Below the pieces are notes generated by a model. It was given only the letters and a program-made list of their open reading frames with translations, did not search any database and had not been told where the DNA came from. From Bdellovibrionales bacterium (GTDB lineage: Bacteria > Bdellovibrionota > UBA1018 > CAIMNF01), in contig JAGWXK010000006.1 of NCBI GenBank assembly GCA_018969905.1, positions 1 through 49,443 on the forward strand: a stretch of DNA of 49,443 nt. Reading direction: 5' to 3'. This document shows, in pieces, positions 24,838 to 33,412 of the stretch. Positions within the stretch are counted from its first letter, which is position 1. Every line of letters begins with the position of its first letter. Both the position numbers and the translations under genes were made by a program.

Positions 24838-25722
24838 ATGATGGAACGATTTCGAATGATCAGGAAGGACGGGAAACTCAACGTTGAAAGCAGCTCGCGG
24901 GGAGTGCGTTTCAGTGATCTCTATCATGACCTGATCGCGCTGAGCTGGCCAAGATTCACGATCTGGTTTGGAATGGTGTTCTTTGCGATCAATTGCATTT
25001 TTGGTTTCATCTATTTCAACATTCCGGCCGAGCAGTTTGATGGACTCAGGCATCCTTCCGGCTGGGATCGGTTTCTGGACAGTTTTTTCTTCAGCGTTCA
25101 AACCTTGGGAACCATCGGGTATGGCCATGTTTCGCCCACCGGCACCTTGGCGAACTTTGTAGTAACCCTCGAGTGTTATACGGGGTTGTTCGTGGTCGCC
25201 TTGATGACCGGTCTCATCTTCTCGCGGTTTTCAAAGCCCCATGTAAAGGTGGTGTTCAGTCAGAATGCGGTGATCAAGAAGTTCGGGGATTTGCCGTGCC
25301 TGATGTTTCGGATAGCAAACGAGCGGCAAAATCATATTACAGATGCATCGGTGAAGGTGCATTTGGTGATGGATGATCCGGATACCGGCTATCGTGAATT
25401 TTTGGAGTTGGTTCTTGAGCGCTCCGAGTCTCCGTTGTTTGCGCTCTCTTGGACGATTGCGCATGATCTTGATTCTCATAGTCCCATTGCGCGGCTTGGA
25501 CTTTCTGAGCTGAAGAATCGCTCGGCCGAACTCATTGTTTCGTTTCGGGGAGTGGATGCGAATCTCTCGCAGGAAATTCGAGCGAAATCATCCTACACGG
25601 TGGATGAGATTCTGCCGGATCATGATTTCGTGGACGTGATTGAGCGTACGGCAAGTGGCGCTGCACGGCTAAAAATGGAGGATTTCCACCGGGTGCGGCC
25701 GGTTTCGGCGCCTTCAACCTAA
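24838..25722 (+). CDS. Inward-rectifier-type K+ channel (KirBac-like)
   Basis: SVQTLGTIGYGHVSPTG selectivity filter, two TMs, C-terminal immunoglobulin-like rectifier domain. Confidence 0.88.
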   Translation: MMERFRMIRKDGKLNVESSSRGVRFSDLYHDLIALSWPRFTIWFGMVFFAINCIFGFIYFNIPAEQFDGLRHPSGWDRFLDSFFFSVQTLGTIGYGHVSPTGTLANFVVTLECYTGLFVVALMTGLIFSRFSKPHVKVVFSQNAVIKKFGDLPCLMFRIANERQNHITDASVKVHLVMDDPDTGYREFLELVLERSESPLFALSWTIAHDLDSHSPIARLGLSELKNRSAELIVSFRGVDANLSQEIRAKSSYTVDEILPDHDFVDVIERTASGAARLKMEDFHRVRPVSAPST

Positions 25723-25788: not shown

Positions 25789-26136
25789 GGGGCCGTCACG
25801 GTTTCGACGGGAGACGTGAAGTCCTTCATGCATGCCGAGGTGCGATCAGGCCTCGTTAAACAGGTCGCAAATAGTAATTGCTAACGATTACGCACTTGCC
25901 GCTTAAATAAAAGCGACACGTTTTCAGAGTCCAGGCCCTCGGGGCTTTGAAAACGACATTAGAGGGCTGGTCTAGCCGGGTTCGTTGACCCTAAGCCAAG
26001 ACAAGATCAACTCAACGGAGGATCCGGAGAGCCGGTCACAGGGCGCTTCGGGTTCAATCTAAAACTGTGGATAAGCATGTAGAGTGGGGAGATGGAGCTC
26101 TTTCGGACGTGGGTTCAATTCCCACCGGCTCCACCA
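25789..26136 (+). ncRNA. ssrA: tmRNA; predicted tag ANDYALAA (25880-25906)
   Basis: 5' GGGGCCGTCACGGTTTCGACGGG; 3' GGTTCAATTCCCACCGGCTCCACCA; internal GCT AAC GAT TAC GCA CTT GCC GCT TAA. Confidence 0.97.
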
Positions 26137-26154
26137 AATTTAGCAGTCTGTATT

Positions 26155-26260
26155 TATAAAAAAAGTCCGGTCTTTTTTAATAACAGCCATCCTGGCTTTT
26201 CACTTCCGCTCGGCATCCATGCCTGAAGTGAATATTAAAAAAGACCGGACTTTTTTTATA
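26155..26260. repeat. 28-bp perfect inverted repeat with nested REP-like palindrome downstream of tmRNA
   Basis: TATAAAAAAAGTCCGGTCTTTTTTAATA (26155-26182) and its exact reverse complement (26233-26260); inner TTCACTTC/GAAGTGAA. Confidence 0.85.
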
Positions 26261-26279
26261 GATACAAAATACTGAGTTT

Positions 26280-26513
26280 GGAGTGCCGGTGGGAATTGAA
26301 CGGGAGATCTCCGGGCAGACTGAATGTCTGCTTTGCGAGCGTGATGCGAGCAAAAGGAGATCGACCTGGGGCTGAGGGAGTTCGACCGGATGGAGAACGA
26401 CGGAAGCCCACAAAAATGCCAGGAGGGCATTTTTGCACGGCGGGAGCAAACGCGACTGCCGCCCATCGGGCGGAGGCCGGGAGGGCCGACGTGAATTCCC
26501 ACCGGCTCCACCA
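26280..26513 (+). ncRNA. Structured element bounded by copies of the tmRNA 3' end; ends in CTCC-A-CCA and is followed by a terminator
   Basis: CCGGTGGGAATT pairs with AATTCCCACCGG, GGAG with CTCC; AATTCCCACCGGCTCCACCA duplicates tmRNA 26117-26136 exactly; internal hairpins GCAGACtgaatGTCTGC, AAAAATGCCaggaGGGCATTTTT, CCGCCCatcGGGCGG. Confidence 0.45.
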
Positions 26514-26519
26514 TTTTCC

Positions 26520-26551
26520 GCCCGAGGGACACGGTCCTTCGGGCTTTTTTG
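26520..26551 (+). terminator. Rho-independent terminator
   Basis: GCCCGAGGGAC-ACG-GTCCTTCGGGC-TTTTTT. Confidence 0.85.
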
Positions 26552-26772: not shown

Positions 26773-26989
26773 GACGTTGCGTGAACTTGAAAAAGACGGA
26801 TTGGTCGAGCGGTTGGTTTATCCCGAGGTCCCTCCGCGCGTCGAATACCGATTGACGAAGATGGGTTACAGCCTGGGAGAAGCGGTATGCTGGATCTGGA
26901 AATGGGCCAAAAAAAACCACGAGGAAATTCATAAGGCTCGAATGAAGTTTGATCAAATGCAGAAAGTCAAATCACTACATAAAGGATAA
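26773..26989 (+). pseudogene. 5'-truncated duplicate of HxlR-family regulator
   Basis: Near-identical to 33113-33329 ([51 protein letters not shown]); DNA-binding N-terminus missing. Confidence 0.85.
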
Positions 26990-27035
26990 CGGAAATACCC
27001 ATTCGCCGCATTGATGACTGGATATGAGCCGATTT

Positions 27036-27856
27036 TTATTCATGGTTCGAAATCGTTCGAATACTCTCAGACGTCAGAAAAGGAATCACCCGTTTCAAAA
27101 ACACATCCGGGAGTTCAGCGAAAGGAGCATGACCACACGGAGGGTTGAAGGTCTCTGCATGCGGAATCGATCGAGCGGCGGTCGCACCGTCAAGCTTGGC
27201 TGAAATTACCGGATCCCTTTCGCCGAAAATCAAGAGCACGGGAGCTCGGATGGACTTCGCTACCTCCCGCAGATCGTTTTCTGCAAGAGCAAAGCTTCGC
27301 CAAAGGGCACGGTTGATCGCCAAACTCCCTCTCGCAGCCTGATGAGTCTTCGCTCGCATGAGCATATCGACCGTAACGCGTGTACGAACGTGGAGATACA
27401 AACGCGCAAACCAAGATGGCGGTACTGAAAATATGCTCCCCTGAAGCCTGCAAAAAAACCGAGTGAACACGCTCTGCGGAGTGAATCCCCCAGGCGAAAC
27501 CAAGACAACGCGCGCCACCCGCGCAGGATGATTCGCCGCAAGTCTTACCGCGATATTTCCCCCCCCACGGAATTTCCGATGATCGAGACATGATGCAGAT
27601 TCAACGCATCCAAGAATTCAACGAAGAGTCGATGAAAAAAGAAAACATCTACCTTCTCGGGGTCGGGCGGAGGAGCGGACTGCCCGTAGCCTGGCCAATC
27701 GAGCGCGATCACCCGGTAATGTTTTGCAAGCTCGGGGATCACCACATCAAAGTCGCGACTATCTCCCGGATTGGCGTGAAGCAGAAGAAGAGGTGCGCCT
27801 TTCCCCAATTCTCGGTAGTAAACCGATCCTCTAGTAAGCTGGATAGACTTCATCAT
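27036..27856 (-). pseudogene. Alpha/beta hydrolase, frameshifted at a G8 homopolymer
   Basis: ORFs 27545-27856 (PLLLLHANPGDSRDF...IIGNSVGG) and 27036-27518 (VARVVLVSPGG...PVLLIFGERDPVI...CGHAPFAELPDVF); removing one G from 27559-27566 restores GNSVGGNIAVRLAANHPARVARVV. Confidence 0.85.
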
Positions 27857-30348: not shown

Positions 30349-31575
30349 TTGTCGTTACCTTCTAAAGGATCCAGTAACGCAATGAAAAGGCCCAAAGTAC
30401 CACTTCAGAACCCCAAGGAGGCCACCCGTTCGGGTCGCTTTGTGAAGCAACTCAAGGGCTATGTGGCATTTCAGCCCGCACCGCTGCCACCGGAACCACC
30501 CATTGTTCAGGATGAAGAGTTGACCTACCTGCTGGGGCAAGCCACTCATGCGGTCGGCAAGCTCAGTGGGCTTGCCGCGATCATTCCTGATCCTGATCTC
30601 TTCGTTTACTTGTTTGTCAGAAAGGAAGCTCTGCTCAGCTCGCAGATCGAGGGCACCCAGTGCTCTCTCGAAGATATCTTGAATCCCGAAGCCGAACCGA
30701 TTCCGGATGGGGCTCGCACCCAGGACATCGAGGAGGTCTCAAACTATGTGAAGGCCATGAATCAAGGCATCACTCGGATTGAGCGTATTCCGGTGAGTAC
30801 GAGACTCATCAAGGAGATCCATGCCACCCTCATGCAGGGTGTGCGTGGATCAGGAAAGACCCCGGGAGAGTTCCGAAGATCCCAAAACTGGATCGGCAGA
30901 CCCGGCGCGACTCTTATGTCGGCGGAGTTTGTGCCGCCGCCTCCCGACGATGTTGAACGTCTGATGTCGGAGCTGGAGAGGTTCGTTCACCACGCTGACA
31001 GGATGCCACCGCTCATCAAAGTGGCATTGATCCATGCACAGTTCGAGACGATCCATCCTTTCTTGGATGGCAACGGGCGGCTCGGGCGGCTGCTGATCAC
31101 TTACTTGCTTGTGCTTTGGCGGGTGCTCGACAAGCCTTTGCTCTATATCAGTTACTACTTCAAGGCCCATCGGACCGAATATTATGCGAGACTCATGGAC
31201 ATACGGATTCACGGTGACTGGGAGTCGTGGATCAAGTTCTTTCTGCGAGCGGTCTTTGAAAGCGCAGAAATGGGAGTTCAGAGTGCAGCGGAGATCCACA
31301 GGCTCATGTCGACGGATCGTGCCCGTGTTCAGGCCGGGGATGTTTCGCCCACGACCCTTCATGTGTATGATCAGTTCTGCCGTGAACCGATTCTTACGAA
31401 CCCGATTTTGGTCACGAGGCTCAATTCCTCGAAGCCCACGATTCAGCGGGCGCTTGAGCATTTGCAGAAGCTGGGAATCCTGCACGAGATCAGCGGCAAG
31501 CAGCGCCGACGCCGTTACGCGTATGGGGCGTATCTTGACATCCTGACCAGAGACACGACGACGCGAATGGGGTAG
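30349..31575 (+). CDS. Fic family protein with C-terminal winged-helix
   Basis: HPFLDGNGRLGRLL catalytic motif; SSQIEGTQCSLEDIL N-terminal inhibitory-type motif; C-terminal TRLNSSKPTIQRALEHLQKLGILHEISGKQRRRRYAY. Confidence 0.95.
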   Translation: MSLPSKGSSNAMKRPKVPLQNPKEATRSGRFVKQLKGYVAFQPAPLPPEPPIVQDEELTYLLGQATHAVGKLSGLAAIIPDPDLFVYLFVRKEALLSSQIEGTQCSLEDILNPEAEPIPDGARTQDIEEVSNYVKAMNQGITRIERIPVSTRLIKEIHATLMQGVRGSGKTPGEFRRSQNWIGRPGATLMSAEFVPPPPDDVERLMSELERFVHHADRMPPLIKVALIHAQFETIHPFLDGNGRLGRLLITYLLVLWRVLDKPLLYISYYFKAHRTEYYARLMDIRIHGDWESWIKFFLRAVFESAEMGVQSAAEIHRLMSTDRARVQAGDVSPTTLHVYDQFCREPILTNPILVTRLNSSKPTIQRALEHLQKLGILHEISGKQRRRRYAYGAYLDILTRDTTTRMG

Positions 31576-31674
31576 CGCTTGTTCGCGTCTGGAGGATCCC
31601 TGCTGCGCCCTGGTGATCGCGCCTCGCGATGTTTGAAATTACAGGCGAAATTCCGCGCGACGGCGTCTCCACCA

Positions 31675-31715
31675 AATTAAAAACCCACTGACCTGAGTCA
31701 GCGGGTTTTTAATTT
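31675..31715. terminator. Bidirectional Rho-independent terminator after a tRNA-like CTCCACCA end
   Basis: AAATTAAAAACCCACTGAC-CTGA-GTCAGCGGGTTTTTAATTT. Confidence 0.8.
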
Positions 31716-31734
31716 TGGTCGTGCTGCGTGGAGA

Positions 31735-31868
31735 TGTAGAAGCCACGCGCGAGCAGAGCGAGCTTACGAGGGTTCACAAAAATGCCAGGAGGACATTTTG
31801 CACAATTCGTCGGTTTGCCCGCAGCGCGGAGGCCGGGATGGCCGACGTGAATTCCCACTGGAGTTGCC
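31735..31868 (+). repeat. Second, degenerate copy of the structured element found after tmRNA
   Basis: Shares CACAAAAATGCCAGGAGGrCATTTT and GCGGAGGCCGGGAkGGCCGACGTGAATTCCCAC with 26413-26501. Confidence 0.7.
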
Positions 31869-31982
31869 AAGTCAATACCGGACCATCTAGCCGGGTCGTT
31901 TTTGTTCCATCGCCCGTGTGAACTGCCTCGGGAATAGCTTCTAGGGCCCCTTGTTAGGGCATTCGAGGTGGCATGGTCGGAC

Positions 31983-32942: not shown

Positions 32943-33329
32943 ATGGAATCAAAAAAGAGCACGATTGATTTGGGCATTCTCGTTCGAGATCTGCTGGGCA
33001 GGATTGCCGATAAGTGGACTCTGGTCGTCATTGAGGAGTTGGGCGAGGAAACACTGCGCTTCTCACAGCTACAAAAGAAAATCGGCGGCATCAGCCAAAA
33101 AGTCCTGACTCAGACGTTGCGTGAACTTGAAAAAGACGGGCTGGTCGAGCGGTTGGTTTATCCAGAGGTCCCTCCGCGCGTCGAATACCGATTGACGAAG
33201 ATGGGTTACAGCCTGGGAGAAGCGGTATGCTGGATCTGGAAATGGGCCAAAAAAAACCACGAGGAAATCAATAGAGCTCGAATGAAGTTTGATCAGAAGC
33301 AGAAAGGTAAAACACACCCTAAAGGGTAG
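32943..33329 (+). CDS. HxlR-family transcriptional regulator
   Basis: [54 protein letters not shown]; divergent to the SDR gene. Confidence 0.92.
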   Translation: MESKKSTIDLGILVRDLLGRIADKWTLVVIEELGEETLRFSQLQKKIGGISQKVLTQTLRELEKDGLVERLVYPEVPPRVEYRLTKMGYSLGEAVCWIWKWAKKNHEEINRARMKFDQKQKGKTHPKG

Positions 33330-33412
33330 CGGAAATGACTCTGGGCGTTTGTGGTGATTTCCCATTGAACTGTGTCCAATCGCATGGACTTCTAACCTGA
33401 TGGATGGAAATC

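Follow-up and report, generated by a model that had tools for sequence, protein, structure and literature searches.

In a Bdellovibrionales bacterium, the ssrA gene is directly followed by a short segment that is bounded by two partial copies of the tmRNA 3' end. The locus raises the question of what this segment is, how it acquired the end of its neighbouring gene, and whether it could give rise to an RNA molecule of its own. The window, i.e., the whole stretch of DNA analysed here, comprises 49,443 nucleotides of contig JAGWXK010000006.1 (assembly GCA_018969905.1). The source genome has a size of 2.7 Mb, is of the Bdellovibrionales type, and belongs to the same genus as G011, a genome to which the element is compared below.

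Anatomy of the element downstream of ssrA

The element, its host gene, and a second copy of its 3' module are composed as follows.

25789–26136, + strand: tmRNA gene (ssrA), the host RNA gene, with tag ANDYALAA and an encoded CCA (ARAGORN; Rfam RF00023, 192.9 bits)
26117–26136, + strand: first (proximal) occurrence of the repeated end, within tmRNA (repeat comparison)
26137–26284, + strand: T1, a long hairpin or terminator-like spacer with arms 26134–26182 and 26233–26281; the positional counterpart of E. coli rrnB T1
26285–26301, + strand: inverted copy of the tmRNA 3' end (repeat comparison)
26302–26403, + strand: 5' half of the core, formed by hairpins that carry the GAGCGTGATGCGAGC motif, common to the tmRNA-linked repeats of G011 (92% identity to G011 C1:185617–185725)
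26404–26500, + strand: 3' module of the core; its hairpins are capped by AGGAG and GGGAG loops, and it is a homologue of E. coli RrA/RrB (85 bits with covariance model R1, this copy being itself among the 13 used for building R1)
26494–26513, + strand: distal direct copy of the tmRNA 3' end, AATTCCCACCGGCTCCACCA (repeat comparison)
26520–26544, + strand: T2, an intrinsic terminator (stem-loop, then a T run)
31770–31856, + strand: additional 3' module, an orphan that ends in GACGTGAATTCCCACTGG and has no tRNA gene upstream (R1 75.8 bits, this copy also having been used for building R1)

The anatomical claims of the initial annotation hold. The distal copy is exact, as positions 26494–26513 are identical to 26117–26136 (20/20), and the copy in inverse orientation that had been placed near 26285 is present (26285–26301 against 26113–26129, 17/17). 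The two ends of the element, which had been proposed to pair, show a 13/13 complementary match between the inverted and the distal copy. The RNA from 26278 to 26516 is highly structured, as had been suggested (folding z = -7.4; none of 200 shuffles was equally stable), and the terminator at 26520 is also there. The hairpin at 26137–26284, which precedes the inverted copy, reaches a folding z of -11.2. An observation that goes beyond the initial annotation is that a 49-nt inverted repeat (26134–26182 / 26233–26281) continues from its descending arm into the inverted copy. Because of this continuity with the T1 arm, the inverted copy can pair either with the 3' end of tmRNA itself or with the distal copy, and the two alternative partners may affect the folding of the tmRNA precursor. 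Judged by its similarities, the element is composite; its 5' half is of the type of the G011 tmRNA-linked unit (92%), and its 3' half is the module. No promoter of its own was seen when the sequence of the element was inspected. T2 is presumed to be the original ssrA terminator, a role suggested by the comparisons of filled and empty sites at other loci.

Own-end copies and insertion sites at other RNA genes

The initial annotation recommended a search for further copies and asked whether each carries the 3' end of its own neighbouring tRNA. Many copies were found in related genomes, and they do so. Long copies of the own tRNA or tmRNA 3' end were present in 22 of 170 downstream regions, while 20 foreign ends tried on each region gave none; this set consisted of tRNA and tmRNA loci with the DNA downstream of them, mainly from five related genomes, with single loci from others. 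In G000 and G011, the own 3' end was found downstream at a score of at least 16 in 13 of 63 regions, as opposed to none for foreign ends (about 32 tried per region). Besides tmRNA, tRNAs for Met, Leu, Ser, Cys, Arg, Pro, and Val serve as hosts. In every case (22/22), the copy begins at tRNA position 56, 57, or 58, and it ends at position 73–76, in 18 of the 22 at the CCA end.

In general, these loci begin with the RNA gene and the T1 hairpin; an inverted gene end often comes next, and the core, the direct gene end, and T2 follow. The inverted copies are absent or weak in many elements. The tmRNA gene of G011 is followed by tandem units of about 250 bp each, which carry the same 20 nt. Three core types, distinguished by eye, occur at unrelated tRNAs. 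In one of them, a GGTTC-like sequence 5' of the 3' module pairs with the copied T stem, which indicates that the module occupies the T-loop position of a copied tRNA 3' half. A single genome can carry around ten elements, and their presence or absence differs between species. A search of contigs with the pattern AAAATGCCAGGAGGNCATTTT revealed two loci of the Bdellovibrionales type 3' of tRNA-Met; two further matches, in Treponema and gammaproteobacterial MAGs, lacked a tRNA and were rejected as chance. At the tRNA-Asp gene of G011, a partial downstream copy (CGAGTCCCTTCACTC) fits the tRNA-Asp of G000 and not the changed tRNA of G011 (CCCATCACTC), so it appears to be a relic keeping the older tRNA sequence.

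Filled and empty sites can be compared directly. For tRNA-Ser(GCT), the filled site in G000 and the empty site in G007 have the terminator in common, and for tRNA-Leu(TAG), the filled site in G011 and the empty site in G000 share the flanking gene. The same holds for E. coli rRNA operons. In rrnG, which has no such repeat, the DNA that follows 5S, including the terminator, is the same as that which follows the second 5S-end copy of rrnA. The comparison of rrnB and rrnA with rrnG identifies the T1–T2 spacer, which for rrnB is part of many cloning vectors, as an insertion, and the single terminator of rrnG corresponds to T2. These comparisons show that at the sister loci, T1, the core, and the copied end are lodged between the gene and its terminator; the copied end may be a target-site duplication or a product of recombination.

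Kinship with the tRNA-linked repeats of E. coli

tRNA-linked repeats (TLRs) have been known in E. coli since 1978, without an assigned function. There are 22 of them at ten loci, and the last 18–19 bp of each repeat those of the RNA gene upstream (Stenum et al. 2021, PMC8144298). RrA, RrB, and RrF are transcribed and processed and bind Hfq and CsrA, but no function has otherwise been established (PMC8144298). Homologues of rrB have been reported in Enterobacteriales only (PMC8144298). Membership of the window element in this family is a point that the initial annotation did not contain.

For the comparison, the 3' module of the core was represented by a covariance model, R1, built from 13 modules that came from Bdellovibrionales only and included no E. 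coli sequence. R1 nevertheless matched the rrnA and rrnB T1–T2 spacers (RrA, RrB) of E. coli with 52.4 bits, at an E-value near 3e-14 for the set searched. It did not match at E. coli rrnC, rrnE, rrnG, or rrnH, and the match to the rtT repeats of tyrT was weak (about 11 bits). The Rfam model RtT (RF00391), at its gathering cut-off of 45 bits, gave no match in the window, and all matches in 55 genomes of the order were below that value. The best of them (28.2 bits, below the cut-off) lies directly 3' of a tRNA-Ser gene carrying a copy of its own end. Additionally, a tandem G-A motif has been reported for RtT (PMC7657543), and the CGA-stem-GAG ends of the elements described here agree with it.

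With RrA, RrB, and RrF, which occupy the T1–T2 spacers of rrnA, rrnB, and rrnD, the window element shares the succession of gene end, T1, core, gene-end copy, and T2. In RrA and RrB, the two that were tested, the 3' module fits R1 at 52 bits, and GGA is found in loops. These repeats differ in that their host is 5S rRNA rather than tmRNA, their 18-nt copy extends 5 nt beyond mature 5S, they have no clear inverted copy, and their published range is limited to Enterobacteriales. The rtT repeats of tyrT (RttR; RF00391) likewise occur in tandem, and each unit closes with 19 nt from the 3' end of tRNA-Tyr (AATCCTTCCCCCACCACCA); a short inverted piece (GGGGAAGGAT) and a CCCGAAGGGCGA-stem-GAGT end are present as here. 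Their first hairpin is different, however, AGGA loops are absent, and the R1 score stays at about 11 bits.

In a TLR, the last ~18–19 nt are expected to repeat the end of the RNA gene immediately upstream, and homology to a known E. coli TLR is expected as well. The window element shows the first over 20/20 nt and the second by the 52.4-bit match of R1 to rrnA and rrnB. The published definition names tRNA and rRNA as hosts; the host in the window is tmRNA, which has a tRNA-like domain and a tRNA-like 3' end, and the sister elements lie at tRNAs. We take the tmRNA host as an extension of the definition. The window element is thus almost certainly a TLR, and it is quite probable that it is at once a TLR and the source of a processed RNA.

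The structure of the module is conserved. The initial annotation had named compensatory changes as a check, and the stems covary heavily; in the alignment of the 13 modules, 18 of 23 pairs changed on both sides while still paired, a result matched in none of 500 shuffles. In an alignment of about 33 distinct matches from the phylum, which was fitted to R1 and is hence biased toward pairing, 94% of cells are paired (0/500 shuffles), and double-changed cells number 177, compared with 50 expected. From these alignments, the structure of the module is judged to be under selection. Loop 1 reads NNGAN in 32 of 33 R1 matches and loop 4 in 29 of 33. GGA is present in loop 1 of 20 and in loop 4 of 28 of these matches, with CAGGATG as the commonest form. 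Across the hairpin loops of all elements, AGGA occurs 25 times versus 4.1 expected and GTGA 19 times versus 2.8 expected. Since GTGA is enriched about as strongly as AGGA, the role of the loops may lie in a fold and not in CsrA binding.

R1 matches occur in 62 of 286 Bdellovibrionota genomes, spread over 33 genera. Among the best 30 loci, 17 have a same-strand tRNA gene just upstream, and most of the others end in a tRNA-like 3' end, several of them being located at contig edges. Four weaker matches (L279 and L283–L285) were set aside as probably unrelated hairpins with no tRNA-like end. In the genus of the source genome, no R1 match was found in 4 of 12 genomes, so the element is dispensable.

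The sequence comparisons show the family to be far older and wider than reported. The TLR family itself is known; what is new is the tmRNA host, the phylum-wide range, the inverted copy, and the T-loop position of the module. For the tmRNA-linked member, the range, and the T-loop position, no description was found in the open-access literature, although earlier reports may exist, and open-access searches for work on non-coding RNAs of Bdellovibrio and for the paper that first described the repeats yielded nothing further. tmRNA joins the list of TLR host genes. With the shared module, two questions also become testable: which features are conserved (loops of the CAGGAUG type and helices), and by what route an element gains the 3' end of the RNA gene that happens to adjoin it.

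Proposed working and rival readings

For the window element, we infer read-through, processing, CsrA binding, and a regulatory purpose. The inserted unit would consist of the T1 hairpin, the structured core, and a duplicate of the final ~20 nt of the RNA gene. RNA polymerase coming from ssrA would partly read through T1, the core would fold, and the distal copy of the tmRNA end would be held in a helix resembling the acceptor/T arm of a tRNA. Cleavage and trimming of this second end by the 3'-maturation enzymes of tmRNA itself would then release a free, short, structured RNA of about 230 nt. Read-through and processing at the second gene end are proposed because the mapped E. coli RrB behaves in this way, and by the same analogy an RNA ending at the CCA is presumably expressed; RrB undergoes processing, has its 3' end 3 nt past the repeat, and binds CsrA via GGA motifs in gel shifts (PMC8144298). 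On balance, a processed small RNA appears somewhat probable.

CsrA, or a comparable protein that recognises loops, would bind to the CAGGAUG-type hairpin loops, and the free level of that regulator would thereby track the synthesis of stable RNA. A CsrA-binding small RNA is suggested by the conserved loops, by the gene for CsrA, which is present in all eight genomes searched, and by the published gel shifts of RrB. The CsrA-sequestering RNAs of the CsrB/RsmZ type also carry CAGGAUG-type motifs in hairpin loops; they have nine to eighteen such loops, whereas there are two to four here, and the present element differs from them in lacking its own promoter and in ending in the 3' end of an RNA gene. 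CsrA scores from the published predictor stay below 0.01 for the 19 TLRs that lie in tRNA operons of E. coli, and deletion of rrA, rrB, and rrF had modest effects (PMC8144298). A role related to CsrA is therefore put forward tentatively.

A different reading is that of a selfish mobile hairpin element with no regulatory task. Its core would insert at a fixed distance from the 3' ends of stable RNA genes, the 18–21 nt duplication would be a target-site duplication, and the element would persist as gene and terminator stay intact. The constant start of the copies at 56–58 (22/22) and their end at 73–76 fit this, as do the existence of filled and empty sites, the same core classes at unrelated tRNAs, the presence/absence differences between species, and the tandem modules and units. 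No autonomous partner is found, however. Neither Y1 transposase nor reverse transcriptase follows the elements (G002 has elements and neither enzyme), and a search of plasmids and phages gave no match. Moreover, loops and stems have been kept from E. coli to Bdellovibrionota, which suggests selection on the fold of RNA or DNA. We consider a purely selfish element rather unlikely.

Retroviral-type primer copying stops at position 58, and a primer-binding origin of the inverted copies was considered. It was dropped because copies start at 56–58 and reverse transcriptases do not co-occur with the elements; the E. coli 5S copy, which extends past the mature end, also contradicts it.

Replication slippage at the ssrA terminator hairpin, with template switching, could have made both the inverted and the direct copies, and the similarity between loci would then reflect later gene conversion. 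Together, the T1 arms, the inverted copy, and the 3' end of tmRNA do make up a single long, imperfect inverted repeat, and the arrangement is the same at tRNA-Val, tRNA-Ser, and tRNA-Met. This leaves the core shared by different tRNAs and the homology to E. coli RrB unexplained, and we find such an origin improbable for the element as a whole; fold-back copying may still be the source of the inverted copies alone. An attL/attR scar, left by integration of a phage or island into the 3' end of the tmRNA gene and an option of the initial annotation, would account for the exact 20-nt direct repeat at an RNA-gene 3' end, a classic attachment site that tRNA/tmRNA-integrating islands also duplicate, in a neighbourhood shown to be rearranged by a 224-nt repeat (26773–26996 / 33113–33336), but it is very improbable and mostly refuted by a core that recurs at many tRNAs with matching ends and has relatives at E. 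coli 5S genes, while the element itself is tiny, with only 357 nt between the repeats and no integrase. The element nevertheless resembles an insertion in which the end of the gene became duplicated.

Returning to the TLR reading, its broadest form can be offered with reserve. TLRs would be an ancient class of mobile structured elements, shared at least by Bdellovibrionota and Enterobacterales, which land ~20 nt from the 3' end of a tRNA, tmRNA, or 5S gene and duplicate this end so that the gene stays intact. They would mature via the processing of the host gene to the host's own 3' end and move by an undescribed mechanism.

Several observations concern the surroundings of the element. A gene for an inward-rectifier-type potassium channel (24838–25722, + strand) lies directly 5' of ssrA. 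The 224-nt direct repeat is 92% identical between its two copies. The one at 26773–26996 is a truncated copy of a gene for an HxlR-type regulator, just 3' of the tmRNA element, and the full gene lies 6.3 kb further on; the block between them may have been inserted or duplicated. An alpha/beta hydrolase on the - strand (27036–27856) is split into two reading frames (27545–27856 and 27036–27518) and is probably a frameshifted gene. At 31640–31870, an CTCCACCA-ended sequence and a terminator hairpin lie 5' of the orphan module, with no recognisable tRNA gene, and this module (31770–31856) is possibly the remnant of an RNA gene with its TLR. A protein with a Fic N-terminal and a Fic domain is encoded at 30349–31575 (+ strand).
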